Positions 7,393 to 26,093 of a stretch of 64,000 nucleotides of DNA are shown here, in pieces (positions within the stretch are counted from its first letter, which is position 1; each line of letters starts with the position of its first letter). Both the position numbers and the translations under genes were made by a program. Origin of the DNA: Vibrio mimicus. Lineage in GTDB: Bacteria; Pseudomonadota; Gammaproteobacteria; Enterobacterales; Vibrionaceae. The notes beneath the pieces were generated by a model. That model ran no database searches. It saw only the letters and a list, made by a program, of their open reading frames with translations, and had not been told where the DNA came from. The stretch spans positions 2,465,501 through 2,529,500 of the forward strand of contig NZ_CP077426.1 of NCBI RefSeq assembly GCF_019048845.1. The letters are read 5' to 3'.

Positions 7393-7405
7393 ATTATTCC
7401 CACTC
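7393..7405 (-). other. Distal attachment site of the island (attR-type)
   Basis: Minus-strand sequence GAGTGGGAATAAT matches the end of guaA (GAATGGGAATGAT at 26081-26093) at 11 of 13 positions. GAG-TGG-GAA-TAA encodes Glu-Trp-Glu-stop, the conserved GuaA C terminus, so this copy is the original chromosomal guaA end. Confidence 0.85.
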
Positions 7406-7543
7406 TATTATTAATTAATAAAAATAACCAACATATTTCAACATCTTATAGAATAAAGATATAAAAATACCATAAATTATACCATACCTAGAAAAACTCG
7501 CTTTTTTAAACGAAAGGCAATGACCTGATATTCAAAATCTAGA

Positions 7544-9829
7544 CTAACGATCAAGGAGAGGTATGAACAGGTTCCGAAGAGCCATGTCGTCAAACTTATC
7601 ACTCTCACTGCTTTTCGAAGACGAAAAGGTAACCGGGGAAGCATTACTGCTCTGCTCCTCGATTTCCCCTATCCGGTCCTCGATGGCTGAAACAGCGTCA
7701 TTCAAAGTTTTCTCCGATACACCAAATCGCGGTGCGAACTTTTTCAGGTCATTAATCCGATCCTCTAAGGAGGATTCGCTATCATCCTCACAAATACGGC
7801 TGCTGTTCTCCTCAAACTCTTCGAGCACAGCTTTGTGTATCGCACTCATAATACTGTCAGGCAGCCCGGTCGCGGCATCCACTGCATCAACAAGCTTGGA
7901 AAGCATATCACTTGAGCTCCAGCGTATCGTGTTCGAGAGTTCTTTTTCGAGCACCTCCAACAATTCGTCTTTGTAAACAAAGGGCTTGTCATCACCATGA
8001 CCTCTAACCTTAGAAATAAGTTCTATCAGAGCTTCTCCATCCGACCATGAAGAGAAACCCTGCTGTGGATTACGGGCAATCACCATAATGCTATCAGCAA
8101 AGTTCCGTTCATTAGTGATCTGCCACCAGTCCATCAGTATGCGAAGCCGCTTTGAGTTCGAAGCATCATTATATTCAAGCGACCCAGGTTCTCCTGCTTT
8201 CGGGCTCCAATGCGGGCGTGTTTCAATCATTTCCAGCAAGTTAGCGCAAGCCTTGGCTATTTTCGCTTGATCGTCTTCACTAAACACGCTTTGACAAACA
8301 AAGTCCCATAGGCTCGCCAGCCAATCTATTGAGGCGGCAGTAAGAACAAGACGAATAAGAAGACTCGTGTCTAACAAGTAAGTTGAGAGATAGTCCTTTA
8401 GTGAAGGGTTGATAAAAGAGACTATCGGCCCTCGAATATTAACTATTTTCACAAAGCTACCTTCCAAAATACGGAGTGCTTCTTCGAAGTCTTTAGGACC
8501 GTGAGGCAGTCCGTAAGCTTTGCTCATTCCTGCATGAAGGGGCTCGAAAGATGAGCGTAGCTTTGCAAGAGACACACCGTATTCTGAAAGGAAAAACATC
8601 GCCATTAGGAGATGCTTGCACCGGTGATCAATGTGAGTACGGAAAGCAGTGTCCCAAATCTGACTAGGGTTATTCAGAGCTTCAATAAAGGCAGAAGGAT
8701 AATTATCAGGATCAATATCACTGATATTCAGTGCGTCGGTCATCGCCTCGATAACGCGTGGGTTGTAGTTCTTGTGATCGACAATTTTCGCGAGCTTAGA
8801 GCTCTTCACTAGCGCCCGGATATACAGCTGCGGTGTATCCGACACTAGCAGGTGATTATAGAGAATTCTCGCCTTGATTCGGCGGGTATAAACACCAACA
8901 TCGAGTACGTACTTCGTCACATCAAGGCGCTGATCGCCAAGATGCTCTGAGACTCTCCGAGCCTCCTCAAAAATGTACCCCCTCGTCGTTAGGATAAAGC
9001 GGGCATTTGGTGAGCGGCGCACACGGCTCATGAACTTCGCTAAGTCTGAATCCTTATGCGCTAAAGCTTGTCGATCTAGAGCGACCTTGCCAAGAAAGTC
9101 ATCAAAGAGAAAAACCTGCTTTTTGCTATCGTTGATCGCAGCAAAGCCGTCTTCCAGACTACGGATAGGAACAAGCTCCCACTCCTCACTCAAGAGGGTG
9201 TAGCAAAGAATCTCGGCCAGTGTCGTTTTACCTACGCCCGGTGGGCCGGAGATTATGAGAAGCTGATACCTATCTAGCTTAGTTAGCGATTCATCAAAGC
9301 TAGGATTTGATGCATATACACGAACTTTCTGCTCTATGTCTTCACGCGTGATCGCTGCAAAGGTATGGGCAGCCGCACGTATGACCTGCTCTAATACACC
9401 CGCTCCAGACAGCCACAGCTTGATGTGCGACTTGAGAATCTCAGGGTACTTACGGAGAAGTCCATTAATGTCCTCTGGACCAAAGATATCCGCTTCAGAC
9501 TTCAGACTCGGTCCTATGATCGGAGAGAGCCTGCTCTTACCAGTCGGAGTTAACCTACAGGAAGTCGCTAGAATATAACGAGAGGGGGCCAGTTTATCGA
9601 TGGATAACCGCTCACGCTTCATGCTAGTCACCAGCTTACTATACGACGACCCCTCATAATGCTTCGCCTGAAGAATAACTCTCCCGCCAGCATGTGAGTG
9701 TCGGCCGTCAATGCCACTATCAGGACCAGCACAGAATGCTTCGAAGCGAAGTCCCTCCTCCTTCCCGATAAGATCTAGGACGAGGTCCTCAAAGTCGGCC
9801 GATGAGAGATTCTTGAAATCGTAACTCAT
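7544..9829 (-). CDS. Mrr-type nuclease fused to a STAND-like NTPase (candidate defence protein)
   Basis: A 761-residue fusion. Residues 8-70 match the Mrr/PD-(D/E)xK restriction endonuclease fold, with catalytic Asp41 (SGIDGR) and Q54-x-K56 (LQAKHY). Residues 187-380 hold a P-loop NTPase with Walker A GPPGVGKTT (195-203) and Walker B VFLFDD (239-244), close to the nSTAND3 group. The remaining C-terminal half is helical and probably senses a trigger. A nuclease joined to a STAND switch is the design of Avs-type anti-phage proteins, but the C terminus is shorter than in the large Avs proteins and no TPR repeats were evident. It lies 97 bp downstream of the PHP-SMC gene on the same strand and probably shares its operon. 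No clear Shine-Dalgarno precedes the ATG. Function is inferred. Confidence 0.75.
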   Translation of the reverse strand: MSYDFKNLSSADFEDLVLDLIGKEEGLRFEAFCAGPDSGIDGRHSHAGGRVILQAKHYEGSSYSKLVTSMKRERLSIDKLAPSRYILATSCRLTPTGKSRLSPIIGPSLKSEADIFGPEDINGLLRKYPEILKSHIKLWLSGAGVLEQVIRAAAHTFAAITREDIEQKVRVYASNPSFDESLTKLDRYQLLIISGPPGVGKTTLAEILCYTLLSEEWELVPIRSLEDGFAAINDSKKQVFLFDDFLGKVALDRQALAHKDSDLAKFMSRVRRSPNARFILTTRGYIFEEARRVSEHLGDQRLDVTKYVLDVGVYTRRIKARILYNHLLVSDTPQLYIRALVKSSKLAKIVDHKNYNPRVIEAMTDALNISDIDPDNYPSAFIEALNNPSQIWDTAFRTHIDHRCKHLLMAMFFLSEYGVSLAKLRSSFEPLHAGMSKAYGLPHGPKDFEEALRILEGSFVKIVNIRGPIVSFINPSLKDYLSTYLLDTSLLIRLVLTAASIDWLASLWDFVCQSVFSEDDQAKIAKACANLLEMIETRPHWSPKAGEPGSLEYNDASNSKRLRILMDWWQITNERNFADSIMVIARNPQQGFSSWSDGEALIELISKVRGHGDDKPFVYKDELLEVLEKELSNTIRWSSSDMLSKLVDAVDAATGLPDSIMSAIHKAVLEEFEENSSRICEDDSESSLEDRINDLKKFAPRFGVSEKTLNDAVSAIEDRIGEIEEQSSNASPVTFSSSKSSESDKFDDMALRNLFIPLLDR

Positions 9830-9926
9830 AATTGGGGGCCGTTAGCGAATCGTAAGACAGCTGCACTCGCGACAGCAGCCTTGAACTGAAAACGACGTTT
9901 CTCCAGATTAAGAATATCGATCAGCC

Positions 9927-12560
9927 CTATTGTTTCCACAGATTATAAACCTCTTTACGTCGATTGAAGGCCTCTTGGCCTCCTTCCATGATATTGATAA
10001 TCGCATCCTGCACTGGGCCTGCATCTATGCTTCCGCTTTGTACCGTGGCATTTTCGTTATTATACTGGCAGGCGTGTACTTGCTCCGCGTCACCTAGCAC
10101 TGGAAAATTGGCGTTATGAGTCGCGAAGATGAATTGAGCATACGGCTTCATCTCTCGTAATAGCTTTATCACGTCATCGTATATAGTCTGGTTATCGAGA
10201 TCGTCTTCCGGTTGGTCGATTATAATTATGTCGTTCTGACGCTGACTTAGCACGTACAGCAACAACGCAGAAGCGCGCTGCCCGAGCGAGTGGTGTTTCA
10301 ACTCTTTACCACGATAGCGGATGACAAAAAGGTTGGGCACTTGCCAAGTAACGAGTTCAACCAAGTTCTGCATGAAGGTTTTCTCGAAAACTTCGGGTGT
10401 ACTGCCCGCCTTAGCTAACGCTGTCGGCAGAGCACGCAACAAACCACCGAAATCAGTGTAATCTTCCATTACCGCACGCAAGGTAGTTTCACGGATATTA
10501 CTGCCCTTAAATAACTGCTGCATGAAGCCTATGGCTGCTTCCTTGTCACCCTTAAAGTCGCCATCTATTTGCAGAGCTGTATGACTGGAGTTAACGCGGT
10601 CGAGCTCAAACTGGATTGTGTTGAATTCGCGCAACCATAGTTCGTTAAGCTTATCGATCTCGGTAAACAACGAATCACGAATACTGCTCTGTTGGCTTTC
10701 CTGCTTGTTCAGCGCAACTAGCATTTGTTCCGCTTGGGTTTTGCGTTGTTCCTGGGTAAGAAAATCGTCCGGCTGAATCACACTCATCCCAGACTGTTTA
10801 AGCTCTTGAGACAATTGCCGCTCGACCTGGGCGAACTCTTCCTGAAGATTCGTACGCGCCTCCTCAAACTCATCTTGTTTAGCATTAAGGCGAATCGTGA
10901 TCTCACGCGCATCCTGCTCAACTGTTTTAAGCTGTTCCAGCTTAGCAAGCAGGTTGGAAAACTCTGCGTAGTAGGCTGTAAAAAACTCTGGATTCTGCTT
11001 GGATACATGACCCGTAGCGTCACGCAGTTCATCTTTATGCTCGGCGATCAATTGCCCCAGCGCGAGAACAAAACTATCCGCACGATCCTTCATGTGCCCT
11101 AGTGCAGAGGCATCCTGCTGAAAACCGAGCCGTTTCTGGAGCTTGTCTGCAACTCCGTACTCTTCAAATTTCTTCAGCCTGAAGTTGGCATCTGTAAGCT
11201 GGGCTTCGAAATCTCGCTGAAGCTCGGCGGTATTACTGAGTTGAAGCCAGCGTTCAGCAGCATCGCGCACGTTTTGCCGCTGCGCCTCGATTTCATCACG
11301 CTGTTCTCGGAGCTTTTCGCCAACCAGTTTTTCTACCAGATCAGTCTCAAAGCCGTCACCAGTACTGGAGAGGTCCTTCTGTCCAAAGTAGATTGGGCGA
11401 CGCAATACAGTTTCTCGAATTGATACTCCTGGTTGTAATTTCCCATCCAAATAGACATTTGGCAGCTCACGAAAAATACGAGAGATGGTGAACTCCTGTC
11501 CGTAGATATCACAAGCTGTTAACGTCACTTTGCCACCACTACCGAGAGTATGGCGAATCAACTCGTCTTTGTACTTGGTGTCCTGGGCTTTCTCACCGCG
11601 AGAAATATCAAGAGCATACCTTACCGCCTCAAGAATTGAGGACTTACCGCTACCACGAATACCTATTAGAGTATTAAGACCAGAAGAAAAATGCAGAGTC
11701 TTCCCTTCAAGGATACCGCCATCAAAACGAATGCTACGAATGAAAGATGCTTGATGTTTAGGTGGTTCGAAAGCTACGCGAGCACTAGGGCTGCTCAAAG
11801 CAAACTTTACGGCTTCGAAAGACAGTTCGCCCAATTTAAGATAACAAACATTACCTTGACCAATATCCTCTATGCGTTTGGCATCACATCCTTCAAGCTC
11901 GGCAGGATACCAATCACCAAGTTGCTGCCGTACCTTGGCCCGGCAAGGCTTTCCCTTTTCTTGCAGTTTGTTGTAAGTGCGGACCTTCTGAAAGCCAAGA
12001 GTACGACGACGGAAGAGTTCATTTTGACTCAATTCGGAGAGTCGCCCCCCCTCTAGTTCAGACCAAAGTCCGCTTGGCGCTTCAACGTGAGCAAAGACTA
12101 GGAAATAGTCGCGATGGTAACTTTCTAGCTTTTTTAGTGTTTCTAGCAGCGACAGAGAGGACCTTCCGTTTTCCTGCTCGTAATGAGCAGGGATTTTTCC
12201 TTCAAAAGCAACTCCCAAGAAAGGGTTGATATGATCATGGCCGTCCTCCAACCAGTCATCAGAGAATACAACTAGCGTGTGAATGCCATTGGCCCCGTCA
12301 TTGACTGACAACTCTACGCCAGGTAATAAGGAAATCCCCTTTTTTTGGGCCGTCTTGCGTAACGCCTTAAACTCACTAAAGTCGAACTTGTTATGATTGG
12401 TAATCACGCCTAGCCGGATATTCGCTTTCTCCAGTGCGTCAACGTAGTTGCTATTGTAATAGTTATCATCGCCTGAGTACTTGAACTCGCGATCCGCGCG
12501 AGTGTGCATATGAAAGTCCGCTCGAACCCACTGCGCACCCTGATCAAAAAAAACATCCAT
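9927..12560 (-). CDS. PHP-domain phosphoesterase fused to an SMC-like ATPase (TrlF-like)
   Basis: An 877-residue protein. The N-terminal PHP domain shows H17-x-H19, N55-H56, E83 and H158. The usual last metal motif (S-D-A-H) reads C225-D-A-K228, so one ligand is missing. An ABC/SMC-type ATPase follows: Walker A GIRGSGKSS at 300-308, a long coiled coil from about 420 to 650, a signature-like LGQRAS, and Walker B with D-loop IIIIDQPEDDLDN near 780, then a TH-N switch (FATHNAN). PHP-ATPase fusions of this plan are found in bacterial islands and are usually annotated TrlF-like. A nucleic-acid-cleaving role is plausible but not shown. Its start overlaps the stop of the RHH gene by one base (TAATG), so translation is coupled. 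Confidence 0.75.
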   Translation of the reverse strand: MDVFFDQGAQWVRADFHMHTRADREFKYSGDDNYYNSNYVDALEKANIRLGVITNHNKFDFSEFKALRKTAQKKGISLLPGVELSVNDGANGIHTLVVFSDDWLEDGHDHINPFLGVAFEGKIPAHYEQENGRSSLSLLETLKKLESYHRDYFLVFAHVEAPSGLWSELEGGRLSELSQNELFRRRTLGFQKVRTYNKLQEKGKPCRAKVRQQLGDWYPAELEGCDAKRIEDIGQGNVCYLKLGELSFEAVKFALSSPSARVAFEPPKHQASFIRSIRFDGGILEGKTLHFSSGLNTLIGIRGSGKSSILEAVRYALDISRGEKAQDTKYKDELIRHTLGSGGKVTLTACDIYGQEFTISRIFRELPNVYLDGKLQPGVSIRETVLRRPIYFGQKDLSSTGDGFETDLVEKLVGEKLREQRDEIEAQRQNVRDAAERWLQLSNTAELQRDFEAQLTDANFRLKKFEEYGVADKLQKRLGFQQDASALGHMKDRADSFVLALGQLIAEHKDELRDATGHVSKQNPEFFTAYYAEFSNLLAKLEQLKTVEQDAREITIRLNAKQDEFEEARTNLQEEFAQVERQLSQELKQSGMSVIQPDDFLTQEQRKTQAEQMLVALNKQESQQSSIRDSLFTEIDKLNELWLREFNTIQFELDRVNSSHTALQIDGDFKGDKEAAIGFMQQLFKGSNIRETTLRAVMEDYTDFGGLLRALPTALAKAGSTPEVFEKTFMQNLVELVTWQVPNLFVIRYRGKELKHHSLGQRASALLLYVLSQRQNDIIIIDQPEDDLDNQTIYDDVIKLLREMKPYAQFIFATHNANFPVLGDAEQVHACQYNNENATVQSGSIDAGPVQDAIINIMEGGQEAFNRRKEVYNLWKQ

Positions 12561-13052: not shown

Positions 13053-13057
13053 CCTTG

Positions 13058-13381
13058 TCATAGCTCAGACCTCGGCATAACGACCCTCGTCATGATCTTA
13101 CCCATTTCCTCCTGCCTCGCCTCGATCTTACTGAGAACAGCCAGGATTGTTGACTGGCCGAACTGGGCAGTTCGCACGTCATCGGTCAGCCATAGCTTCA
13201 ATAAGCCACCCAAACGGCCAAGATCGCCGTTAATTCGAGCCAACTCCCGTACCTGCTCACAATCGACCACACCCTTGATCTTGTAGCCCTGGCCAACCTC
13301 ACGCAGATAACGCGCAGCGCTCATGCCTGCTCGCTTTGCTTGCGCCTCGATATGCTCCTTTTCCTCGGGTAAGCAGTACAC
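13058..13381 (-). CDS. traJ: TraJ-like oriT-binding protein (IncP relaxosome component)
   Basis: Binds the origin of transfer and recruits the relaxase in IncP-type mobilisation. Residues YCLPEE, the GMS-x-A-x-YL region, and above all RINGDLGRLGGLLKLWLTDD closely match TraJ of RP4/RK2 as recalled. The GTG at 13381 is the first standard start in frame, but similarity to RP4 TraJ (ITRKSSTPIK before VYC) continues upstream to about 13411, and no ATG, GTG or TTG exists in the 17 codons before the GTG. A good AGGAGG lies at 13425-13430, inside the end of the preceding gene. Either a rare start (ATA at 13411) is used or the N terminus is shortened. The matching oriT lies at 16636-16794. Confidence 0.85.
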   Translation of the reverse strand: MYCLPEEKEHIEAQAKRAGMSAARYLREVGQGYKIKGVVDCEQVRELARINGDLGRLGGLLKLWLTDDVRTAQFGQSTILAVLSKIEARQEEMGKIMTRVVMPRSEL

Positions 13382-13421
13382 CTTGATCGGCGTACTGCTC
13401 TTCCTCGTTATTCGTTTTGCC

Positions 13422-13649
13422 TTACCTCCTTGTTACCTGGCGGATAGTGTCCAACGCCTCCTGGAAGTCCTCGGGCGTCGCTCGGCCAGTTTCACCCTGG
13501 TAGTACAGGATCGTGAACATATTGGCGACCGCCTCCGCGACTGGCAAAACCTGCCGGGCGGTTTCCTGGTCGATGAACTCCAGGGCGGCCAGCTTGATCG
13601 CAGCCTGATGAATTGCTTGCTGAACTTCGATATTATGTGTGGTTGTCAT
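13422..13649 (-). CDS. Small hypothetical protein in the transfer region
   Basis: Seventy-five residues, mostly helical by composition, soluble, acidic in the middle. It has a strong ribosome site (AGAGAGGTGAC) before the ATG at 13649. Its stop overlaps the ribosome site of traJ, which suggests coupled expression. No family recognised; a relaxosome accessory protein is possible from position alone. Confidence 0.6.
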   Translation of the reverse strand: MTTTHNIEVQQAIHQAAIKLAALEFIDQETARQVLPVAEAVANMFTILYYQGETGRATPEDFQEALDTIRQVTRR

Positions 13650-13683
13650 GTGTCACCTCTCTGTCAGGTGGTATGTGAAAATG

Positions 13684-13709
13684 CGGGCCGGTGCACCATC
13701 ACCGGCCCG
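13684..13709 (-). terminator. Strong hairpin between small transfer-region genes
   Basis: Perfect 10-bp GC-rich stem (CGGGCCGGTG / CACCGGCCCG) with a 6-base loop, followed on the minus strand by CATTTT. It may terminate or attenuate transcription coming from the trb genes before the traJ unit. Confidence 0.6.
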
Positions 13710-13721
13710 TGTGCTTTCTAA

Positions 13722-13976
13722 CTACTTGCGTCGGCCAAACGGCCAGCGTCTCATTTTGTCGATTTGATCGACAGATCTCGTCATGTCCTTGTAAGTACGC
13801 CCGGCCAACCTGTTTTGGAATACCTCCATTTTAACGGCAATGGCTTTCATCTTCGGGCCGTGTCCGGTGTTGTGCAGCCACTGCCCCAAAAAATAGAAGG
13901 CCAGCATCACAATGAACATCACTGCGAAGAAACCAAATACCTCCGCAAGGTTTTGGGGTGGAAAGTTAAACTCCAT
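13722..13976 (-). CDS. Small membrane protein, unrecognised
   Basis: Eighty-four residues with one clear transmembrane helix (about residues 12-32, FGFFAVMFIVMLAFYFLGQW) and a basic cytoplasmic tail ending RRWPFGRRK. AAGGA precedes the ATG at suitable spacing. It follows the trbL-adjacent gene with a 20-bp gap. It may belong to the mating apparatus or its exclusion function, but no family was recognised. Confidence 0.6.
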   Translation of the reverse strand: MEFNFPPQNLAEVFGFFAVMFIVMLAFYFLGQWLHNTGHGPKMKAIAVKMEVFQNRLAGRTYKDMTRSVDQIDKMRRWPFGRRK

Positions 13977-13996
13977 AATCAGTAATCCTTATCTAG

Positions 13997-14284
13997 TTAG
14001 GCCATGCGGCCTTTTTTAACAAAGCTGGCAATCTCACTATTTCGTTCCTGCTGAAGTTCCTGGGCATACGAAACGTAATCCTCAACGTCGAAGGTGTGCT
14101 TTTCCGGGTCGCGCTCTTGCCATTCTGCGTGTGCTTGGCGGGCTTCTTCCTGGTCCTCACTGGACAGGCCATCAAAGCCGCCGATTTGATTCATCCAGCC
14201 AGTGCCGACGCCGCCTAAGCTATCGCTGTCAAATGCAGGGGAAGCGTCGTCAGTCGCCCTCCTTGTCGTCGTCATCCCCGTCAT
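13997..14284 (-). CDS. Small hypothetical protein overlapping the end of trbL
   Basis: Ninety-five residues, acidic and glutamine-rich in the second half (ARQAHAEWQERDPEKH, AQELQQERNSEIASF). It begins 35 bp before the trbL stop in another frame, so it is probably translated by coupling. A second ATG lies three codons in. No family recognised. Confidence 0.55.
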   Translation of the reverse strand: MTGMTTTRRATDDASPAFDSDSLGGVGTGWMNQIGGFDGLSSEDQEEARQAHAEWQERDPEKHTFDVEDYVSYAQELQQERNSEIASFVKKGRMA

Positions 14285-15545: not shown

Positions 15546-15592
15546 GATTAGAACCCCTTGTTCTTGGAGCGATCCGTGGGTTCGCCCATATC
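15543..15592. repeat. Direct repeat copy 1 (trbK end and trbL start codon)
   Basis: Fifty bp matching 15743-15792 at about 39 of 50 positions, spaced exactly 200 bp. It encodes the C-terminal tail DMGEPTDRSKNKGF of TrbK and includes the start codon of trbL. Confidence 0.85.
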
Positions 15593-15745: not shown

Positions 15746-15792
15746 GATTAAAATCCCCTGTTTTCTGAACGGTCGGTTGGCTCGCCCATATC
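15743..15792. repeat. Direct repeat copy 2 (trbJ end and trbK start codon)
   Basis: Partner of the copy at 15543-15592. It encodes the TrbJ tail DMGEPTDRSENRGF and includes the start codon of trbK. Confidence 0.85.
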
Positions 15793-17643: not shown

Positions 17644-18377
17644 CTTATCCTATTCTCAGCATCTATTGTTATTCCAACTTCATGCAATTTTTCTGCATCC
17701 TCCCTAAGCCTGGAACGCCCATTTCGCATCTTCTTACTATTGATGTTTTCACCACAGACTGCGCGAATGAGAGTATCAACATGCCACCCTCCGGCGGGAT
17801 CATTCTTGTGGGTCAAGATGTGTCGCGCGACCGCCTGGCTAATCCCGTGCTGCAAGCGAGCAATTGGGGCAGGATCGTAGTACAGGCTAAGGTCATGCTC
17901 CAATAACATGACCAAGGCGATACCAAGCCGAACTCTCCACAGATTTCGCTCTCCTCCCGTCAAGGGATCAGGGCGTGTCATAGGTGAAGGGATAACATGA
18001 TCGATCAAGCCGCCGATTATCGGAAAATCGAACTGTGGTGTTTCAATCGTTACTGTTGCTGCTCGCAGCTCTGCCAGCAGCTTCTCAAGATGGGAGGAAC
18101 TATACCGGCTATCTGACAACGTTTTCCGCACTTTGGCAGGGTCTACCAATAGCTCTATACCACCATCTGAAACATCGCGTCGACGTTCGGCACAGTGCAA
18201 AATAGCCTCAACAACATCTGCGTGCCGCTGACCAAGCCTTCCCTTAATGCGACAGCGGCCAAAGGATGTTTCCATCAAGTCAGCCTCCATCAGGCTTGGA
18301 CGCTGACTGGCCTGGTAAAGCATCACTCTTGCCTGTGCACTGGTACTAGTTGGAGTGACCTTGTTACCAGTTGTCAT
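17622..18377 (-). CDS. repC: RepC-like iteron-binding replication initiator (IncQ type)
   Basis: Initiator expected to bind the iterons next to it and melt the origin. The 251-residue protein has winged-helix features, and its C-terminal part (WHVDTLIRAVCG, then RNGRSRLREDAEKLHEVG) aligns in pattern with RSF1010 RepC, while the N-terminal half is diverged. The ATG at 18377 overlaps the end of repA by 14 bp and has GGAAGG upstream, so it is translationally coupled to repA, as in IncQ plasmids. Confidence 0.75.
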   Translation of the reverse strand: MTTGNKVTPTSTSAQARVMLYQASQRPSLMEADLMETSFGRCRIKGRLGQRHADVVEAILHCAERRRDVSDGGIELLVDPAKVRKTLSDSRYSSSHLEKLLAELRAATVTIETPQFDFPIIGGLIDHVIPSPMTRPDPLTGGERNLWRVRLGIALVMLLEHDLSLYYDPAPIARLQHGISQAVARHILTHKNDPAGGWHVDTLIRAVCGENINSKKMRNGRSRLREDAEKLHEVGITIDAENRIRRLTPAR

Positions 18378-19227
18378 CAACGCCTTCCATAGCAACTTTA
18401 GATTTCTTGAACGGTAATACTCCTTTGGCCTTACGCTGCCTCTCCAGCACGGCAGGTTTCAGAACACCGCCTTCGTGACGCCTGAACCAACGCTCGGCGA
18501 AAGGAGAGCCATAATTCGCCTTGCTAACGCCATAGCGGACGAAGTACCCACGCTGACTATCATCAACACCCCATTCTTCAGCCTCGGTTTGCGTCATGCC
18601 AGACAGGTACGATTGCCAGCGAATGTTATCGACCAGAACAGACGACCCACGGCTGGCCTGCTGCTGGTCACCCGCACCAATCATGGCGGCGCTCTTACTG
18701 GTATGGTGCAAAAATACGATAGAGCACCCCGTATCGGCGGCGATGGCCTCCATACGTCCGATCACTTGTGCCATTGGACCGCTAACGTTTTCATCTTCGA
18801 TGTGGAAACGGCGTAAGGTGTCCAAGATCATCAGGCGACGGCCTTCAGCCGCTCGCTTAAGGCCATCGAACCAATCGAGACACATGATGTTGGGGCACCT
18901 TCCTATCAGCGGCTCAATCAGCAAACCTTTAGCAACAGCTTGCCGCTGCTCGGCAGTGAGATGTGCCCCAAGCGCATGTAATCGGTGATGGATAGCAGCA
19001 GGAGGATCTTCTGCGGGAAGATAGATAACTGGCCCAACTGTAAATTCTCCGACTTCCAGCAAGTCCGGGCCTCCAGCGATCTGCGTTGCAAGCTGCAAGG
19101 CCAGCATGGATTTTCCGGCACCACCTGGTGAAACCAAGGCCCCCACCGTACCGGCAACCATGTTAGGTAAAACATAATCAAGAGGCTGCGGCGTTTCAGA
19201 AAAGGCCGCCATAAGATCAAGGGCCAT
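18364..19227 (-). CDS. repA: RepA-like hexameric replicative helicase (IncQ/RSF1010 type)
   Basis: RecA-fold DNA helicase of 287 residues. Walker A SPGGAGKS at 33-40 and Walker B LMILDT at 132-137; the stretches LDYVLPNMVAGTVGALV, DQQQASRGSSVLVDNIRWQS and RWFRRHEGGVLKPAVLERQR are nearly identical to RSF1010 RepA as remembered. The C terminus is about ten residues longer than RSF1010 RepA. It lies four bases after alpA and overlaps repC. This is a strikingly close match for a gene in a Vibrio chromosomal island and marks the replication module as IncQ-derived. Confidence 0.9.
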   Translation of the reverse strand: MALDLMAAFSETPQPLDYVLPNMVAGTVGALVSPGGAGKSMLALQLATQIAGGPDLLEVGEFTVGPVIYLPAEDPPAAIHHRLHALGAHLTAEQRQAVAKGLLIEPLIGRCPNIMCLDWFDGLKRAAEGRRLMILDTLRRFHIEDENVSGPMAQVIGRMEAIAADTGCSIVFLHHTSKSAAMIGAGDQQQASRGSSVLVDNIRWQSYLSGMTQTEAEEWGVDDSQRGYFVRYGVSKANYGSPFAERWFRRHEGGVLKPAVLERQRKAKGVLPFKKSKVAMEGVDDNW

Positions 19228-19231: not shown

Positions 19232-19462
19232 TTAGGCCTCTATGGTGGTGCCAGGTCGAGCAGCCTGGATTCCAGACGCTTTACGCGCCGCTATCCATTC
19301 TTCGACTTCCGACAAATCCCAAGCAACATTTCTGCTTGTAAGCGCTATGCGCTTCGGAAACTCCCCACGCTGTTCCAGGTTATAAATTGTGCGCGTTGAA
19401 AGTGGAATCATCTCCAGGAGCTGTTTCCTGTTGATGAGAACTTTATTTGCCATTGTTTGCAT
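19232..19462 (-). CDS. AlpA-like helix-turn-helix regulator/excisionase
   Basis: Seventy-six residues with the AlpA pattern: LINRKQLLEMIPLSTRTIYN (recognition helix), LEQRGEFPKRIAL, and W at the end of strand (VAWDLSEVEEWIAARK). AlpA proteins act as activators or excisionase-like factors in P4-type islands. The ATG at 19462 has GGAGGT six bases upstream; longer in-frame starts lack this. It is the first gene of alpA-repA-repC, so it may link excision with replication. Confidence 0.8.
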   Translation of the reverse strand: MQTMANKVLINRKQLLEMIPLSTRTIYNLEQRGEFPKRIALTSRNVAWDLSEVEEWIAARKASGIQAARPGTTIEA

Positions 19463-19548
19463 GCTTGAACCTCCATTTACCTGTTGAGGCTTCATCGTGC
19501 CAAGCAATGCAACTTGATTAAGCTTTATTTTTGGACTATAAGGTTGTT

Positions 19549-20592
19549 ATGAATATCGAAAACCAAGCTAGACTAGACCTAGGGCAAGACCACATAGCCA
19601 TCCTTCCAGGCTGCGCCCAGCCTGTTTCTCTTGCTATCGCCAAATTTAGAACGCGCTGGGGACCTTACTCTGCCTTCTCTCGGCGCTATCCCATTCTTCG
19701 CCTGATACAAGAACTGATCGATCCTGCCATAGCTGAGTACATGGATTCCCTACCAAACAGCTATAAAAACCATGTTGCGGGTATTGGCTCAGGAGTTGGA
19801 TTTAGCGAAATCATCCGGCTGATAGGGCTGGAAGCAATGGTGCGCATGCAGCGCCAACTGCTACGTCAGTTCATAAAGACAAGTGATGCACAAACCCAAA
19901 GAGATCAGTGCTTCGTCGCAACCATTGAATCGTTAATTGAATTAACCTGGGATTGCGCCTGTAAGCGTCCGAAGAAATCAACAGCGACCAAAGGCGTCAA
20001 CCTAAACGTACAACGAAAACATAGTTTCTGCGAATTCTGTGGGAACCTTACGGAGTACTCAAAATTCATGCTCACAGTAGAGCAGAGACAAACAAATGAG
20101 GTTGAACTTATAGACCACAAGAAACTAGAACTTAGCCACAATTACTGCAAAGAGCATCGCCCCAAACTTGCCAATGACGAGTGGAATCCAAGTTACAAAC
20201 AGGCAAAGCGCTCCCTCGCACAATTCAATATCGAACTTTCTAGGTTAGCTCATCAATCTGCACATCGCGCTAAGCCTCATGCTATGTCAGGAGACAAACT
20301 GATCGATGACTATTTCTTCCTATTCATGTTGAATTTAACATTACAGCCAGCAGACGTAGCGGAGCTTCGCAACCTAGCTCGAAAGATGGTCGACTCTAAA
20401 CTTTCAGACAATAAGAAGAAAATGCTGGTACTTCAGCATTATGGCTACACTCAATCTCAAATAGGCACAAAGCTACTAAGCAGAAAACAACAACCAATGA
20501 CACCTCAAGCAGTATCTAAAGCATTAGCAGCAGTTCGCAAAGATTTTGTGCTTCCTGCTAACAGGCCGGGAAAAAGCCAACAGAAATTTTAG
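19549..20592 (+). CDS. Zinc-finger / helix-turn-helix protein, unrecognised
   Basis: A 347-residue protein, divergent from alpA. It has a treble-clef-like set C161-x2-C164 (CEFCG) and C200-x2-H203 (CKEH), and near the C terminus a helix-turn-helix-like stretch (YGYTQSQIGTKLL then MTPQAVSKALAAVRKDF). The ATG at 19549 has AAGG upstream; a TTG at 19531 is less likely. Nothing in the N-terminal 120 residues was recognised. From its place opposite alpA-repAC it could be the island's control protein. Codon use looks more AT-rich than the rep and trb genes. Confidence 0.7.
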   Translation: MNIENQARLDLGQDHIAILPGCAQPVSLAIAKFRTRWGPYSAFSRRYPILRLIQELIDPAIAEYMDSLPNSYKNHVAGIGSGVGFSEIIRLIGLEAMVRMQRQLLRQFIKTSDAQTQRDQCFVATIESLIELTWDCACKRPKKSTATKGVNLNVQRKHSFCEFCGNLTEYSKFMLTVEQRQTNEVELIDHKKLELSHNYCKEHRPKLANDEWNPSYKQAKRSLAQFNIELSRLAHQSAHRAKPHAMSGDKLIDDYFFLFMLNLTLQPADVAELRNLARKMVDSKLSDNKKKMLVLQHYGYTQSQIGTKLLSRKQQPMTPQAVSKALAAVRKDFVLPANRPGKSQQKF

Positions 20593-20715: not shown

Positions 20716-22581
20716 TCACGTAGTACCCAATATAGTCGTACCATCTATGGTTTCGACTCCCGCCGGCGCCAATAATTGCTGTATCCAGCCAATAGCATGC
20801 CCTCGCTCAACGCACTGGGAGAAAAACGCACGCTGCTTTGCTCTGGTAAAGGCAACAAAAAAAGTGTTTAGCTCTTCACCCCGTTGCGGCGTAAGGCTCC
20901 ACCAAGTCTGATTGTCGAGCCCATAAAATATCATCGTATGGAACTCAAGACCTTTGCTTTTATGGATGGTCATCAGAGCTACCTGGCCAATACCTTCGAA
21001 CTCATCCAGCGCTTCCGTCCAACTGCTGCTGTGTTCTGCACACTCCTTCAGGAGAGTGACAAATCCACTCCACACCCTCTCAAAATCCCTTGCACGCAGG
21101 TAAGCGGGAAAGGATTGCCGAAGCCTAGGGGTCCCTACAAATTCAAGAAGCATCTCTGCAATCTCTTCCGCTGCATCCGGATCAGGCTGGCGACGCGCCA
21201 ACTCTGCCCTTAATTGACGGACGAATGCTTCAAGCTTAACCAGTAACCGTTCCTGCGTGAGATCGTTATCCGGATCGGCAGCCTCCAGAAACAGATAGTT
21301 CTGCTGGGCCTGCTCCCAGTTTTCTGGGCTTCGGTCCGTCGCTCCCAGGCGGAGCAAAGGAACGAATATGCTGGTCAGCTCTTCACCAAGCAGATCCTGT
21401 ATCTGAATTTCACCGACTGACCGGGCCGCATTTCTGATCCTGAGACCTCGTGCCGCAAAAGCAGGGGCTATCTCACCCTCCACCTGATCTGCCCGCATTC
21501 TGATCAGAATTGCTACATCATGTGGCGCAACACGCCCTGACTGAACCTCACGGCTCACCCATTCTGCCAGATAATTGTTCTCGTCATCTGCGTTCCGGAA
21601 TTGCCAGATAGCAGAAACCTCACCTTCAATTTCACGGGTCCCTTGTGCCTGCACCGCTTCCACATTGCCGTCTATCCGGCGGGCAATCTCGTGCTGAATA
21701 CGAACCAGATCCGCATGTGACCGCCAGTTTGAAAGCAATGTGATGCGCCTCGCACCAAAGTCGTTTTCAAACTGGTCGAAGGCGTCATCCATGGCTCCCG
21801 CCCATCCCATGATGCGCTGCTTATCATCGCCGACTGCCGTAAAGACAGCGTCACTGCCATCAAATGCCGTTAGCAGCATGTCGTACTGGGCATAGGTTGT
21901 ATCCTGATATTCATCAAGAAAGACGATGGGATATGTTGCCTGTAAGGCCCGGCGGATATATGAATTTTCCTGAAGCAACAGTTTTACAAGCCTGTTTATC
22001 ATCGGGAAGGACAGGGATATCTCGTCGCCCCCGAAGAATTGTTCATGCCAGTAATCTGCTAACGCACGATGTACTTCAGATCCATTTGACAAGTCAATTG
22101 GCAGGTCTGTCAGAAGCAGTCTTCTCTCAAGCTGTTGAGCACTCACTTCGTGATAGCCATGTCGCTCAATAAAATCGTCATAATCCCTGCGAAACGGATT
22201 AACAATCTGATACGTACCGGGCGCATTGAACGGCTCAGGTAAAGCCGGACGAAACCGGTCCAGAAGCCCCTTGGTAAAGGCATCAAAAGTCATCGAATCA
22301 AAGCGCCGCGCCTGATCTCTCGGGCAACGCTTTGCAACCCTTTCGGCGAGGTTTCGGGCGGCATCTTTTTTAAAGCTGATGGCAAGAATACGTTTGGGTG
22401 CTGGACAAATACCGGTCTGCAGAAGATAGGTCGCCTTCTGTGCCAGAAACTCAGTTTTTCCGGCACCAGCACCAGCGGTCACAAGGATGCTGCTATCGGT
22501 TTCACGTAAGGCCTCCCACGCTCTGCCTTCCAGACCACCGACACCCTGAGGTACCCATTCGTCTCTGCTTACACGGGTCAT
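20716..22581 (-). CDS. gajB: GajB-like UvrD/Rep-family helicase (Gabija defence)
   Basis: Superfamily 1 helicase of 621 residues. Motif I AGAGAGKT (36-43), motif II DEYQD (near 222), motif III GDDKQRIMGWAGA, motif V TIHKSKGLEFH, and motif VI VAFTRAK (near 577) are intact. It overlaps the OLD nuclease gene by four bases (ATGA at 22578-22581). In Gabija, GajB senses DNA ends and drives GajA cleavage of phage DNA. The protein is longer than the classic 494-residue Bacillus GajB. A non-defence UvrD paralogue is unlikely given the paired nuclease. Confidence 0.87.
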   Translation of the reverse strand: MTRVSRDEWVPQGVGGLEGRAWEALRETDSSILVTAGAGAGKTEFLAQKATYLLQTGICPAPKRILAISFKKDAARNLAERVAKRCPRDQARRFDSMTFDAFTKGLLDRFRPALPEPFNAPGTYQIVNPFRRDYDDFIERHGYHEVSAQQLERRLLLTDLPIDLSNGSEVHRALADYWHEQFFGGDEISLSFPMINRLVKLLLQENSYIRRALQATYPIVFLDEYQDTTYAQYDMLLTAFDGSDAVFTAVGDDKQRIMGWAGAMDDAFDQFENDFGARRITLLSNWRSHADLVRIQHEIARRIDGNVEAVQAQGTREIEGEVSAIWQFRNADDENNYLAEWVSREVQSGRVAPHDVAILIRMRADQVEGEIAPAFAARGLRIRNAARSVGEIQIQDLLGEELTSIFVPLLRLGATDRSPENWEQAQQNYLFLEAADPDNDLTQERLLVKLEAFVRQLRAELARRQPDPDAAEEIAEMLLEFVGTPRLRQSFPAYLRARDFERVWSGFVTLLKECAEHSSSWTEALDEFEGIGQVALMTIHKSKGLEFHTMIFYGLDNQTWWSLTPQRGEELNTFFVAFTRAKQRAFFSQCVERGHAIGWIQQLLAPAGVETIDGTTILGTT

Positions 22582-24539
22582 TCATTCTCTCCTGACAGAT
22601 GGAGCTTATCCGTAACGTACTCAATGAGCGCCCTAAGCTCTGCTGGAGCGGATGCAGCAACACCGCCGTCCGCGATGCGGGAAAAAGCCGCTAGGTGAGT
22701 TTCGGGCTTACTGCGACTCAGGAACAGATAGGGATACCATTTGAATGCATCATCAAAATGAGCAGTATACAAGGCAGGATTACCACCTGTTTTCAGCGTG
22801 CTGACCTTTTTGGCTTGAATAGCAGCAGCACTACTCTGGGGTCCATTACCACCTGGATTGGCAACCTGATAAGCGGTTGGAAAGGCGAGCAACATGGCAA
22901 AGTCGAGATCAATGGGAGCGGAAAAGAAAACACCCTGCTCATTGAAAGCTTGAAGCCATTGACCTTGCGAACCTTCGTTATAAAGCTGTTGGTCGGTAAG
23001 CTGAACAGCATTCGCACGACTTCTGTTCCCCCAATCGTTCCCAATATCTGCTAGATTCTGAAGACAACTCCTCATGGCGTTCGCCCCACCATGCCTGCGC
23101 CCCAGATCAAGATCGAGCAATGTGGCATGTGGAATCTCAAGATTATTAAGCAGCCGCCAAAAATGCGCTACGAATCGTCCACCGAGCGGAACGACGGGAA
23201 CGAATGATGGATCAAGGGGAACACCCATTTCCTCCGCAATTTTCGGAATAACGACTCGCTCAGAGTCTCCCTCACCTAGGATTACAAATCGTGCAAAATA
23301 AAGTTCGGGATATGCCTTTACGGCCAGTCTGACATACACGCTGGCCTCAACATCATCCTCAGGCAGGATCAGTTCTCGGATTGATGAGCACCGGGTGCTC
23401 CGGTCCATACGAAAATATCTCACTTCCTCCGGCTCTATCCGGCTCAGGATAGCCGGGGAATGGCTGGATAGCAGAACCTGGGCGGAAGGCAGTGCGCCGA
23501 TCTCTCTTGCCTGCTTGATGATGCGAGACAAAAAGAATGGTGACAGACTGTTTTCTGGTTCTTCGATGGCAAGAATCGTCAGGTGAATACGGCGTAACTT
23601 ATCCTGTTCAAATGAGCTATCATCAGCAGGCAAAGAAAAAGCTTCCCGCTCGGTTTCGAGCGTTGCCGCTGTAAGGGCAATATGGAACAGAGAGCGCTGA
23701 CCGTCACTCAGCTCGGACAAACGGCGCTCCTGACCTTCTTCATCAGGCGTAAAGGTAAATTCGGCTTTACGAACAAGCTCCTCAAAACGGTTTTCGATAA
23801 GCCTTAAACGCGGCTGACTGTCTGTATCGGCTTCATGGACCTGTTGCCACCGTCTTGAAAGACGCCCCAGCAAGACCCTTAACGGCTCCTCCTCCTCAAA
23901 ACTGCTCTGGATCTGACCGGCATTATCAGAGCTTGCATCCCTAAATGCTGTCGACCACTTGGCAGCCTGCCATAACCGCCCTTTTAGAAGGGCGGTCACC
24001 TGAGTCGTCGCATCACGATTTGCCGGTAAGTAAATAAACTGGATTGAAGAGCGCTCTACAGCCTGAACCCTGGAACAGTCATCCCATTCAAAATTATCAT
24101 CCAGGGTTCTTATCCAGCGTATATCCTCTTCAATTGCTCCTTCCGGCGTACCGTCATCCGTCCATGTTGCTTTTAGTCGTATCCGGGCCTTAAGGGGCTC
24201 TCCCTCACCGGAAGCCGCCATCTGATTAAAGAACTCCGGAACGGCATCAAGAGGAGAAGCGTCTTGCTCTTCCAGTTCAGGGAAGGCAAGTACCGCTTCG
24301 ATAAACAAACTATCGCCAGACTGCAGCTCCTGCCGGTCAATAGGTATGTGAAAATCCCGACGCTGTACCGACCGTTGCGATGATGATGTACCAAACAACC
24401 TGGACACAGCTTGCAGCACCGCGGTCTTTCCGGAGCCGTTTCCGCCAACAAGTATTGTCAGCTCTTCCTCGAAATTTAGCTCGACCACCTCATGCCCGAA
24501 ACAACGAAAATTCTGTAGCTTTATCTTCTCTATTTTCAT
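22578..24539 (-). CDS. gajA: GajA-like OLD-family nuclease (ABC ATPase plus Toprim)
   Basis: ATP-controlled DNA endonuclease of 653 residues. ABC ATPase with Walker A GGNGSGKT (32-39), a signature-like LSDGQRSLF, Walker B ILAIEEPEN (near 320) and switch His in LLSSHSPAIL. A Toprim domain follows with EGDSE (near 420) and LDLDLG (near 476), the metal-binding set of class 2 OLD nucleases, which are defined by a neighbouring UvrD helicase. It is longer than the 578-residue Bacillus GajA. The gene starts 47 bp after the integrase stop, on the same strand, so both may share a transcript. Confidence 0.87.
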   Translation of the reverse strand: MKIEKIKLQNFRCFGHEVVELNFEEELTILVGGNGSGKTAVLQAVSRLFGTSSSQRSVQRRDFHIPIDRQELQSGDSLFIEAVLAFPELEEQDASPLDAVPEFFNQMAASGEGEPLKARIRLKATWTDDGTPEGAIEEDIRWIRTLDDNFEWDDCSRVQAVERSSIQFIYLPANRDATTQVTALLKGRLWQAAKWSTAFRDASSDNAGQIQSSFEEEEPLRVLLGRLSRRWQQVHEADTDSQPRLRLIENRFEELVRKAEFTFTPDEEGQERRLSELSDGQRSLFHIALTAATLETEREAFSLPADDSSFEQDKLRRIHLTILAIEEPENSLSPFFLSRIIKQAREIGALPSAQVLLSSHSPAILSRIEPEEVRYFRMDRSTRCSSIRELILPEDDVEASVYVRLAVKAYPELYFARFVILGEGDSERVVIPKIAEEMGVPLDPSFVPVVPLGGRFVAHFWRLLNNLEIPHATLLDLDLGRRHGGANAMRSCLQNLADIGNDWGNRSRANAVQLTDQQLYNEGSQGQWLQAFNEQGVFFSAPIDLDFAMLLAFPTAYQVANPGGNGPQSSAAAIQAKKVSTLKTGGNPALYTAHFDDAFKWYPYLFLSRSKPETHLAAFSRIADGGVAASAPAELRALIEYVTDKLHLSGENE

Positions 24540-24586: not shown

Positions 24587-25774
24587 CTAAACAACCCACT
24601 CATCAATCATATCAGCCCAGTCTTGCAACATAGATGTACGCTGATCACGATACTCGGCTTTGTTATATATCGCCCTCACACCCTTTTGCTCATGTGCCAG
24701 GCATTTCTCTATCCAATCGGTGTTGTAACCGGCTTCATGGAGCAAGGTACTGGCTGTTCGTCTCAGGTCGTGCGGGCCGAATTTGGCAAGCGGTTGTCCC
24801 TCTTTCTGAGCTAGCTTGTAAGTCATCGTCATCACCCGGTTCAGCGTGGCACTGCTCATCGGGACGTCAGAATCGTAGCGTGATGGCAGAACATAATCCG
24901 ATCCACCGGAGAACGTCTTCAAAGCGATGAAGATATCCATGGCCTGCCTGGATAGAAACACCAGGTGAGGATTTCGCCGCTTCATCCGTTCTTTGGGGAT
25001 CGTCCAGAGCGCTTCGCTGAAGTTGATCTCACTCCAGGTGGCATTCGTCAGCTCGCTTTTACGCACCATCGTCAACAACAGTAGCTTTACCGCTGCCCGG
25101 ATCGATGGCGATGTACCAATACGCCCCATGTACTGGTACATAATCCTGATTTCTTCGGGCGTAAGGGTTCGATCTCTCGGCTCAAACCTAGCAATGCTTG
25201 CGGGCCTAACCAGGTCTGCCGGGTTCTCAACCTTCTGGCCTCGCTCAGTCGCCCAGCGGTATACCTGGAGTACAATCTCACGTGCATGAACCGCCGTAGC
25301 AGGCGCACCGCGCTCTACTATGGCGTCGGTAAGTGCTCGCAAGTCCTCGTGGGTGATTTCGGTCAGCTTCTGATTGCCGAATTTCGTTTCCAGCTCTCTC
25401 GTATAAACCGAGCGGCGCATATCACGGGTAGAGTCGGCCATCTGGTAGCCACGTAGCCACTTTTCCGCCCAGGCACCAAAGGTTTCAGCCCCTTTAACAC
25501 GCGCCTTGTCTCGGGCCTTCTCCTTCGCTGGCGACTTTCCATCGGCGACCATCCGCCTGGCTTCACCAAGTCGCTCACGGGCTTCTGCCAGCGTGATCCC
25601 CCCAACGCCATAGCGGCCAAAGGTGATTGTCTCTTGCCTGCCATTGATCGAGTAGTTGTAACGGAATGAGATGGAACCGGCAGGAGTGACAGCCACATAG
25701 AGGCCATCCCGGTCATTCACCTTGTAGAGTTTATCCCTCGGCTTGAGGTTGCGCAGCTTGGTATCGGTCAGCAA
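24587..25774 (-). CDS. int: Tyrosine integrase of the P4 family, guaA-targeting
   Basis: Site-specific recombinase of 395 residues. N-terminal DUF4102-type arm-binding domain (LRNLKPRDKLYKVNDRDGLY), SAM-like core-binding domain, and C-terminal catalytic domain with Arg near 236 (TMVRKSEL), H335-x2-R338 (HDLRRTAS), H361 (LAHEQKG) and nucleophile Y370 (IYNKAEY). No ATG fits the N terminus; the likely start is TTG at 25774 with AAGGA eight bases upstream. It lies 306 bp from the guaA junction and faces away from it, the usual layout for integrases at guaA. Confidence 0.92.
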   Translation of the reverse strand: MLTDTKLRNLKPRDKLYKVNDRDGLYVAVTPAGSISFRYNYSINGRQETITFGRYGVGGITLAEARERLGEARRMVADGKSPAKEKARDKARVKGAETFGAWAEKWLRGYQMADSTRDMRRSVYTRELETKFGNQKLTEITHEDLRALTDAIVERGAPATAVHAREIVLQVYRWATERGQKVENPADLVRPASIARFEPRDRTLTPEEIRIMYQYMGRIGTSPSIRAAVKLLLLTMVRKSELTNATWSEINFSEALWTIPKERMKRRNPHLVFLSRQAMDIFIALKTFSGGSDYVLPSRYDSDVPMSSATLNRVMTMTYKLAQKEGQPLAKFGPHDLRRTASTLLHEAGYNTDWIEKCLAHEQKGVRAIYNKAEYRDQRTSMLQDWADMIDEWVV

Positions 25775-25952: not shown

Positions 25953-26003
25953 CGCTCAAGCGGTGCTTCCCGCTGCCATCAGCTGCCAAATACTGCCAGA
26001 CAC

Positions 26004-26033
26004 AAAAACAAAAAGCCCATGAAAACATGGGCT
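26004..26033 (-). terminator. Island-borne terminator serving guaA
   Basis: AGCCCATG / CATGGGCT stem with a 4-base loop, followed on the minus strand by TTTTTGTTTTTG. It lies about 50 bp after the present guaA stop and replaces the displaced original terminator. Confidence 0.85.
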
Positions 26034-26080
26034 TAAGTGTTATTAAATGCCAGTTAGTACCAGCTAGTGCCTAACGTGTG

Positions 26081-26093
26081 ATCATTCCCATTC
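26081..26093 (-). other. Proximal attachment site inside the guaA end (attL-type)
   Basis: Minus-strand GAATGGGAATGAT, covering Glu-Trp-Glu-stop of GuaA. Compared with the distal copy it differs at the third and eleventh bases, silently changing GAG to GAA and TAA to TGA, so these last bases come from the island. Confidence 0.85.

Follow-up and report, generated by a model that had tools for sequence, protein, structure and literature searches.

Matched TrbJ and TrbK tails and an exchanged cassette in a guaA island of Vibrio mimicus, a candidate satellite of IncP-type plasmids

We analysed a 64,000-nucleotide stretch of the Vibrio mimicus contig NZ_CP077426.1 (positions 2,465,501 to 2,529,500 of assembly GCF_019048845.1; hereafter the window), which holds at the 3' end of guaA an island of the GIsul2 kind carrying trbJ, trbK and trbL (Table 1). 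The island is probably a relaxase-less satellite of conjugative plasmids of incompatibility group P (IncP) type, equipped with an exclusion-type cassette and shared-tail recognition. This kind of island is already known; a preliminary description of the same DNA had read it, by analogy with SGI1, as a hitchhiker on IncP helpers in which TrbJ and TrbL remodel the mating pore and TrbK excludes rivals, and this interpretation, which fits the swapped cassettes, matched tails and kept operators described below, is largely right but in print. What is new here is that the TrbJ tail, TrbK and TrbL are swapped as a cassette, that the TrbJ and TrbK tails match, and that KorB operators are kept outside trbJ. 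The co-varying tails point to a form of entry exclusion in which TrbK would copy the tail of TrbJ, probably facing TrbL.

Matched tails and the exchanged cassette

At the level of sequence, the C-terminal tails of TrbJ and TrbK match within an element and co-vary across elements. In the window TrbJ ends in DMGEPTDRSENRGF and TrbK in DMGEPTDRSKNKGF; elsewhere the likeness recurs with other letters, for instance PKNWLQVKP (TrbJ) and PKNWLEVKP (TrbK) in locus L015, or YRASPARTW and FKPSPKREW in plasmid R751. Own TrbJ/TrbK tail pairs score 49.5, as against 20.4 for other pairs (0/20,000 permutations), in a discovery set of 50 loci (three without a lipobox TrbK were dropped and the other 47 thinned to 29 by TrbK identity), and the own partner ranks first in 16 of the 29 dereplicated loci and within the top three in 24. 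This set was tested after the tail pattern had been noticed in it; a phylum-wide and an independent set were fetched afterwards, and TrbK was chosen in both by position and hydrophobicity alone. The independent set comprised 29 loci from a search of 311 genomes, 23 of them usable (five had no TrbK by the rule and one TrbJ was cut); thinned to 15, all less than 70% identical to the first set, they gave 54.1 for own pairs and 21.7 for others (0/20,000 permutations), with the own partner first in 8/15 and within the top three in 13/15. In the discovery set the bodies of TrbJ and TrbK carry no pairing signal (4,057 of 5,000 permutations as high), and pairing is not clear for the tail of TrbL (337/5,000).

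Recent gene conversion was considered as the source of the matched tails and rejected because third codon bases differ: at identical residues in the last 12 codons of 16 chosen loci they agree in only 55 of 115 cases (2/10 in the window), so that the tail peptide itself appears to be held by selection. In an AlphaFold2 (AF2) model of TrbJ of modest quality (mean predicted local distance difference test score [pLDDT] 66), the last 13 residues, which match the TrbK tail, are unstructured; TrbJ has no relative in the PDB by sequence at E 0.01.

As identity profiles and allelic types show, the TrbJ tail, TrbK and TrbL move between backbones as one block. Nine near-identical backbones (relative to the window, Int 97-99% identical where held, RepC 94-99% and the TrbJ body 92-98%) carry three cassette types, namely A (window, L002, L003 and L008), B (L004, L009 and L010) and C (L011 and L012), and identity between types is 21-41% in the TrbJ tail, 17-40% in TrbK and 43-68% in the TrbL N-terminus. 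L050 has a divergent backbone (RepC 72%) yet carries type A at 100% (TrbJ tail), 98% (TrbK) and 99% (TrbL N-terminus); its synonymous divergence (dS) from the window is 1.22 in trbJ, 0.02 in trbK and 0.17 in trbL. The borders of the swap are equal from both directions in the identity profiles, lying in trbJ near position 15,850 and just before PtaRNA1 near 13,740. Over the 25 islands having all genes, distances among TrbK, the TrbJ tail and the TrbL N-terminus are correlated with a partial Mantel r of 0.81-0.86 after correction for RepA, RepC and TrbJ-body distance (0/2,000 permutations); TrbK and RepC distances, corrected for the TrbJ body, are not correlated (r 0.03, 622/2,000 permutations). 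The swapped block has the PtaRNA1 toxin/antitoxin at one of its borders.

The island cassette also differs, in sequence identity, from the alleles of the IncP-type plasmids compared. The reference was a panel of 13 plasmids whose trb operons are fuller (12 of them conjugative by typing, L100 non-mobilizable). When each of 21 chosen satellites is compared with the panel member closest to it in the TrbJ body, identity in that body is 71-93%, whereas the TrbL N-termini agree at only 47-62% and the TrbK proteins at 21-52%; plasmid-plasmid pairs with TrbJ bodies 70-82% identical (n = 24) share 62-88% of the TrbL N-terminus, 21 of the 24 being at 72-88%. TrbL of the window matches 1,152 of 72,556 plasmid records, four at 73-75% over 60-63% of its length and the other 1,148 below 60%; two of the four closest were inspected and are typed non-mobilizable and mobilizable. 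Divergent TrbK and TrbL alleles in satellites are the trace that evasion of the helper's exclusion would be expected to leave, and are not proof of evasion. The pair of conjugative plasmids L102 and L104 is 99% identical in the TrbJ body, 38% in its tail, 35% in TrbK, 52% in the TrbL N-terminus and 94% in the TrbL C-terminus, and is by these identities a case of the same specificity block swapping between plasmids.

IncP TrbK is described as acting in the recipient only, the C-terminus of TrbK is essential for exclusion in pKPC_UVA01, and for IncP TrbK no donor partner had been identified as of 2022 (PMC8923210). The tra2 genes and traF have been tested in recipients, and only trbJ and trbK, each alone, protect from killing by the RP4 secretion system (PMC11045733); the VirB6-like TraG of SGI1 disables exclusion (PMC5389848). 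Within TrbL, the windows that track TrbK most are residues 1-60, 106-165 and 226-270 (partial r 0.73-0.81, computed with 11 of the 50 loci dropped and with no permutation test), and those that track it least are residues 61-105 (r 0.24-0.33) and those beyond 316 (0.26-0.43). The three former regions are predicted, by reading of the hydrophobic segments, to face the periplasm.

We suggest the following course of events. Entry of an IncP plasmid would bring about excision of the island by AlpA and Int, its replication, and nicking at its origin of transfer (oriT) by the plasmid's TraI. By joining the mating pore that the plasmid encodes, island TrbJ and TrbL would change its exclusion type; the recipient's plasmid-encoded TrbK would fail to recognise the remodelled pore, and the island's own TrbK would exclude donors of the same type. 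The tail of TrbJ would dock on the periplasmic side of TrbL and the TrbK of a recipient would compete for that site: anchored in the recipient, TrbK probably obstructs the pore by offering a TrbJ-like peptide to the loops that the incoming TrbL exposes in the periplasm. The helper's KorB would bind the island's operators, either regulating the island or partitioning the excised circle. That IncP entry exclusion is tail mimicry at TrbL, that the trio is a transferable self/non-self code which satellites carry, and that the KorB operators mean that the helper treats the satellite as its own is a combined proposal that we advance tentatively, with doubt slightly outweighing confidence. Under tail mimicry, satellites carry exactly trbJ, trbK and trbL because the three form the code, which would explain why guaA islands and plasmids like pMATVIM-7 have these genes while lacking the remainder of the pore. 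IncP plasmids carry genes across a broad host range, and the shared tail suggests how they may tell self from non-self during transfer. The matched tails name a candidate peptide and, in the periplasmic loops of TrbL, a candidate receptor for TrbK, making its partner directly testable.

KorB operators kept in the islands

The island contains two exact copies of TTTAGCGGCTAAA, which we took to be the KorB operator; R751, with nine exact copies in 50 kb and one of the nine within trbJ, then lent support to this identity. The two island copies, predicted operators that lie in the signal-peptide codons of trbJ and across the stop codon of orfP, compare with 0.11 expected (64-kb window, up to one mismatch), and one further copy in the 4.35-Mb genome lies, by eye, in a phosphotransferase system (PTS) gene. 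In the first set, 38 of the 39 loci with TrbJ residues LAAK keep the exact operator, and 0.25 would be expected from codon usage over the 38. Among 32 islands that have an IncP trbJ or oriT, 23 carry an operator outside trbJ; of the 33 that have neither, 1 does, namely L054, on a contig that ends inside repC. Control palindromes (n = 200) average 0.015 matches with a maximum of 2; the KorB operator has 39 outside trbJ and 26 inside it. In 11 islands, where it lies at the orfP end, the operator is 1.04-1.10 kb upstream of alpA; the distance is 0.20-0.36 kb in five islands without orfP and 1.28-2.31 kb in seven; some islands have an extra operator between repC and trbJ.

The genome of the window encodes no close KorB (best match 32% over 140 residues; the positive controls R751 and p7ME01 matched), and the likely ligand of the island operators is the KorB of a helper, for which regulation and partition are both possible roles. 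With recognition sequences for a helper (oriT and KorB operators) and neither a PF03432 relaxase nor a close KorB of its own, the island would thus rank as an IncP satellite. The operators suggest a link between such a satellite and its helper, by analogy the role that AcaCD boxes have in SGI1. The mobilizable plasmid pMATVIM-7 (L007), which has no KorB match, carries three KorB operators, trbJ, trbK, trbL and the ptaRNA1 toxin, and is perhaps a plasmid-borne hitchhiker of the same helpers.

Alternative explanations and opposing evidence

The KorB operators might act as hijacked centromeres, the helper's IncC/KorB partition system segregating the excised, replicating island and no gene being regulated. 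KorB serves the IncP plasmid RK2 as its ParB (PMC5577506), both operators of the window lie away from promoters, in trbJ and at the 3' end of orfP, no KorA operator is found in the 32 islands, and neither ParA nor ParB is among the 19 open reading frames (ORFs) scanned; set against this, KorB silences promoters from 45 bp to more than 1 kb away (PMC11790492), and alpA is within such a distance of an operator in 16 of the 23 islands (0.20-0.36 or 1.04-1.10 kb upstream), which makes regulation possible. We regard the centromere explanation as doubtful, though with a real chance of being right. The shared tail could instead be a signal for assembly or processing (a common chaperone, peptidase or anchor), with the co-variation of TrbL due to tight linkage. 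Adjacent genes swap together, so linkage alone yields co-variation between TrbK and TrbL; linkage does not yield the match of TrbJ and TrbK tails in different elements, the independent set included, and exclusion by pKPC_UVA01 depends on the C-terminus of TrbK (PMC8923210), which leaves this explanation unlikely.

It is improbable, in our judgement, that the trio serves as a shield of the host against incoming IncP-type secretion systems, with TrbL as a passenger or as a partner that TrbK requires to function. Such a role would agree with the protection that trbJ or trbK in the recipient gives against killing by the RP4 type IV secretion system (PMC11045733), with the Gabija, TrlF and nSTAND3 genes of the island, and with the other defence genes that relatives hold in the same slots (11/20 cargo proteins), but a shield would not need the oriT that is kept, TrbK of the 21 satellites would, at 21-52% identity to the nearest of 13 plasmids, probably exclude those plasmids poorly, and trbL is under purifying selection as judged by its ratio of nonsynonymous to synonymous substitution (dN/dS 0.07-0.18 in seven pairs, one of eight not being computable). 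Far less probable still is an eroding remnant of an IncP plasmid or integrative and conjugative element (ICE) integrated at guaA, despite the lack of relaxase, coupling protein and secretion ATPase among the ORFs scanned and three loci with lesions (trbJ of L004 is damaged, with an internal stop in the record, and trbJ of L016 and trbK of L037 probably are). Islands at guaA in many genera share this gene set, dN/dS is low (0.04-0.12 for trbJ and 0.09-0.55 for trbK, eight pairs each), oriT and KorB operators are kept and intact cassettes are exchanged; a decayed ICE was dropped because the gene set is recurrent and dN/dS low. Nor is the set a one-off decay product, one of the outcomes by which the preliminary description would have had its reading judged: IncP-type trbJ (sharing 50% or more with the window's copy) is present in 27 of 65 RepC loci, and three loci are damaged or probably so (the 65 are 61 loci from a RepC profile search in genome contigs, the window and three Escherichia coli loci; some end at contig ends, so that absences there carry little weight).

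Several further observations, besides those three lesions, weigh against our own reading of the island as an IncP satellite with tail-based exclusion. In the discovery set 5 of 29 own partners rank below third, among them those of R751 (L069) and pBS228 (L096). The tail match fails for most pairs of Ti/Tn4371 type: across the phylum-wide set of Ti-type TrbJ, where 25 of 29 loci have a TrbK, own pairs average 27.2 as against 18.7 (0/20,000 permutations), the own partner is first in only 6/25, and 7/25 pairs score at least 38, five of these being IncP-like by profile score, with the rest at 12-30. Tail matching as a universal property of type T mating-pair formation (MPF_T) systems was rejected on this ground. 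The tails of R46 (IncN) and R388 (IncW) are alike by eye, and the own partner is third of 31, which is not significant. A finding not predicted by the tail model is that exclusion by pKPC_UVA01 requires a trbK in the donor as well (PMC8923210); residues 151-225 of TrbL also track TrbK (r 0.58-0.72), so that the contrast with the predicted loops is partial; and the backbone of L012 is itself mosaic, its RepA sharing only 54% with the window's.

On the side of the operators, the copy in trbJ is inherited from IncP trbJ (R751 has it) and is found in only 11 of 28 trbJ loci of the independent set, and the Fisher test on the operators outside trbJ (2.5e-9) overstates independence because the island loci are related. 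The KorA operator (exact core) has no site in the 32 islands and one in the 33 others; a link to KorA or KorC operators (KorC 0 and 0) was dropped, and that to TrbA operators (5 as against 2) is not convincing. As to a helper, the whole genome has no VirB4 (PF03135) and no PF03432 relaxase in searches that did not cover other relaxase families and that matched 1 of 14 control genomes each, and ICERspD18B has been reported as a circular form and to transfer to E. coli, with no helper named in the available part of the paper (PMC7775301).

The island among known elements, and its remaining features

Insertion at the 3' end of guaA with the GAGTGGGA core (the guaA-side copy being GAATGGGA), the int, alpA, repA and repC backbone, an IncP-type oriT, and TrbJ, TrbK and TrbL without relaxase, coupling protein or other pore genes are the marks of the GIsul2 type, and all are found here; the ends agree with those of published guaA islands (PMC7775301). 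Matches in Pfam, NCBIfam and Rfam bear out the parts listed in the preliminary description (oriT, traJ, int, alpA, a replication module and only these three trb genes), and its statement that relaxase, coupling protein, pilin and secretion ATPase are missing holds among the 19 island ORFs scanned by Pfam (ten by NCBIfam) as well as in the genome-wide VirB4 and PF03432 searches. It had known of no named family of this type; GIsul2 and its guaA relatives are named (Harmer et al. 2017; Nigro and Hall 2011; both as cited in PMC9376610 and PMC5704250), and the same hypothesis stands in section 3.2 of Guedon et al. 2017, where TrbJ, TrbK and TrbL of GIsul2 are proposed to reshape the IncP pore and allow retrotransfer (PMC5704250). 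GIsul2 is excised and integrated in an Int-dependent way, and overexpression of AlpA has an effect (PMC9376610). Among open-licence PMC full texts, a scope outside which most subscription papers fall, we found none that reports a TrbJ/TrbK tail match or KorB operators in such islands, and none that has 'KorB' together with 'GIsul2'.

An element of plasmid R485, whose record does not name it and which we call GIsul2-like from its gene content, shares Int, AlpA, RepA/RepC, an oriT upstream of trbJ, TrbJ-TrbK-TrbL, the ptaRNA1 toxin and the lack of a relaxase with the island; identity is 88% in Int, 89% in AlpA, 86% in RepA and 87% in oriT, whereas RepC (26%) and TrbL (45%, a different cassette allele) are distant. 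Unlike the GIsul2 type, the island has TraJ, orfP, Gabija and other defence genes, and not ars, sul2 or IS91-like genes. The ars genes, resG and the CR2-sul2 unit are not among the window ORFs scanned, and we do not treat them as defining for the type because cargo varies among relatives. SGI1, a satellite of IncC plasmids, has the same lifestyle, with no relaxase and with replacement pore subunits that include the exclusion-disabling VirB6-like protein (PMC5389848, PMC5704250); its genes and site are unrelated and it has AcaCD activator boxes where the island has KorB operators, and the available parts of the same papers mention no exclusion lipoprotein for it. The island was not assigned to the SGI1 family (trmE site, TraN/TraG/TraH, AcaCD boxes) since it has the guaA site and Trb genes instead, AcaCD boxes not having been searched; a P4-like phage satellite, considered for Int and AlpA, was dropped as no capsid-related gene is among the 19 ORFs scanned, in a search that did not extend to cos/pac sites.

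The 'IncP island' integrative mobilizable elements (Yoshii et al., via PMC5704250) and plasmids of the pMATVIM-7 type share trbJ-trbK-trbL and traJ with the island, the former also the guaA site and pMATVIM-7 the ptaRNA1 toxin; they carry a MobP/TraI relaxase, and a full-length TraI match is likewise present in seven loci of the present backbone (L019, L020, L029, L031, L035, L038 and L050). ICERspD18B shares the guaA site, int, alpA, repA/repC and trbJKL and differs by its resistance cargo (PMC7775301). In E. coli, at least 80% of window positions 13000-19600 is present in 7 of 5,426 genomes at 95-99% identity; two of the seven were inspected and have different cargo and no TraJ match. Loci L018 and L024, which have the same guaA/Int/RepC backbone, lack a KorB operator; their trb genes are distant relatives in the opposite orientation, and the two loci look as if adapted to different helpers.

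From guaA, the island reads Int, a Gabija cargo slot, orfP (on the opposite strand), AlpA, RepA, RepC, four iterons, the IncP oriT, TrbJ, TrbK, TrbL, small ORFs, a ptaRNA1-family toxin together with the antisense RNA, and TraJ; a TrlF-family ATPase and an nSTAND3/Mrr protein occupy the second cargo slot, which follows (Table 1). The iterons, the PtaRNA1 RNA and the two exact KorB-operator sequences go beyond the preliminary description. RepC falls below every Pfam cut-off and is assigned by its position next to repA, its 477 homologues and the annotated repC of a relative (26% identical); TrbK has a weak family match, below the cut-off, yet is a lipoprotein at the expected position. The oriT, the sole copy in the whole genome, presumably contains the IncP nic motif. 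The 'cis-regulatory RNA' traJ-II of Rfam (RF01760) coincides with the nick region of the IncP oriT and lies here upstream of trbJ, not traJ; the family may be a conserved DNA transfer origin instead of an RNA.

Table 1. Features of the guaA island, in window positions
Feature	Positions	Strand	Basis
Whole island between attachment (att) repeats	7393..26093	.	repeat positions; guaA ORF at 26082-27635
Distal att repeat GAGTGGGAAT	7396-7405		
nSTAND3 nucleoside triphosphatase (NTPase) + Mrr-type nuclease domain, cargo slot 2	7544..9829	-	PF20720, PF04471; PADLOC PDC-S73, 490 bits
TrlF-family ATPase, cargo slot 2	9927..12560	-	NF045780, 584 bits (cut-off 350)
TraJ, oriT-binding relaxosome protein	13058..13381	-	NF010451, 179 bits (cut-off 134)
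ptaRNA1-family toxin	13422..13649	-	PF12703, 108 bits
PtaRNA1 antisense antitoxin RNA	13643..13716	+	RF01811, 78.6 bits
Exchanged block: trbJ tail, trbK, trbL, small ORFs up to PtaRNA1	13715..15870	-	identity profiles, allelic types; borders approximate
trbL (VirB6-like)	14250..15545	-	TIGR02783, 254 bits (cut-off 129)
trbK, predicted entry-exclusion lipoprotein	15548..15745	-	family match 20 bits (cut-off 23)
trbJ (VirB5-like)	15748..16524	-	NF010452, 393 bits (cut-off 286)
Predicted KorB operator TTTAGCGGCTAAA in trbJ signal-peptide codons	16489..16501	.	exact match
IncP-type oriT	16651..16755	-	Rfam traJ-II RF01760, 100.2 bits, E 3.8e-19
Four 21-bp iterons, probable vegetative replication origin (oriV)	17561..17644	.	
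RepC-type replication protein	17622..18395	-	477 homologues; adjoins repA; repC annotated at same place in relative
RepA-type helicase	18364..19227	-	PF13481, 103 bits; relative's annotation 'helicase RepA family'
AlpA, probable excisionase	19232..19507	-	PF05930, 51.7 bits
orfP, conserved protein adjoining alpA	19531..20592	+	no family match
Predicted KorB operator TTTAGCGGCTAAA across orfP stop codon	20588..20600	.	exact match; 1,093 bases before alpA match start
GajB of Gabija, cargo slot 1	20716..22581	-	PADLOC 712 bits
GajA of Gabija, cargo slot 1	22578..24539	-	PADLOC 795 bits
Tyrosine integrase Int	24587..25774	-	Pfam PF00589, PF13356
guaA-side att repeat GAATGGGAAT	26084-26093		

The protein encoded by orfP has no Pfam or NCBIfam match, and its AF2 model (pLDDT 78.5) has no PDB match at E 0.001. 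It is present in 23 further loci over 80% of its length; the gene is divergent from alpA, and the protein has invariant cysteines across 22 sequences. The defence genes in the two cargo slots, one on the int side and one on the att side, differ among related backbones (L002, L010, L031, L038 and L053), and PADLOC matches at E 1e-10 were obtained for 11 of the 20 cargo proteins examined. The cargo of relatives includes Gabija, PDC-S06, PDC-S20, a CBASS-type cyclase, type II restriction-modification and an Avs1b-like match.

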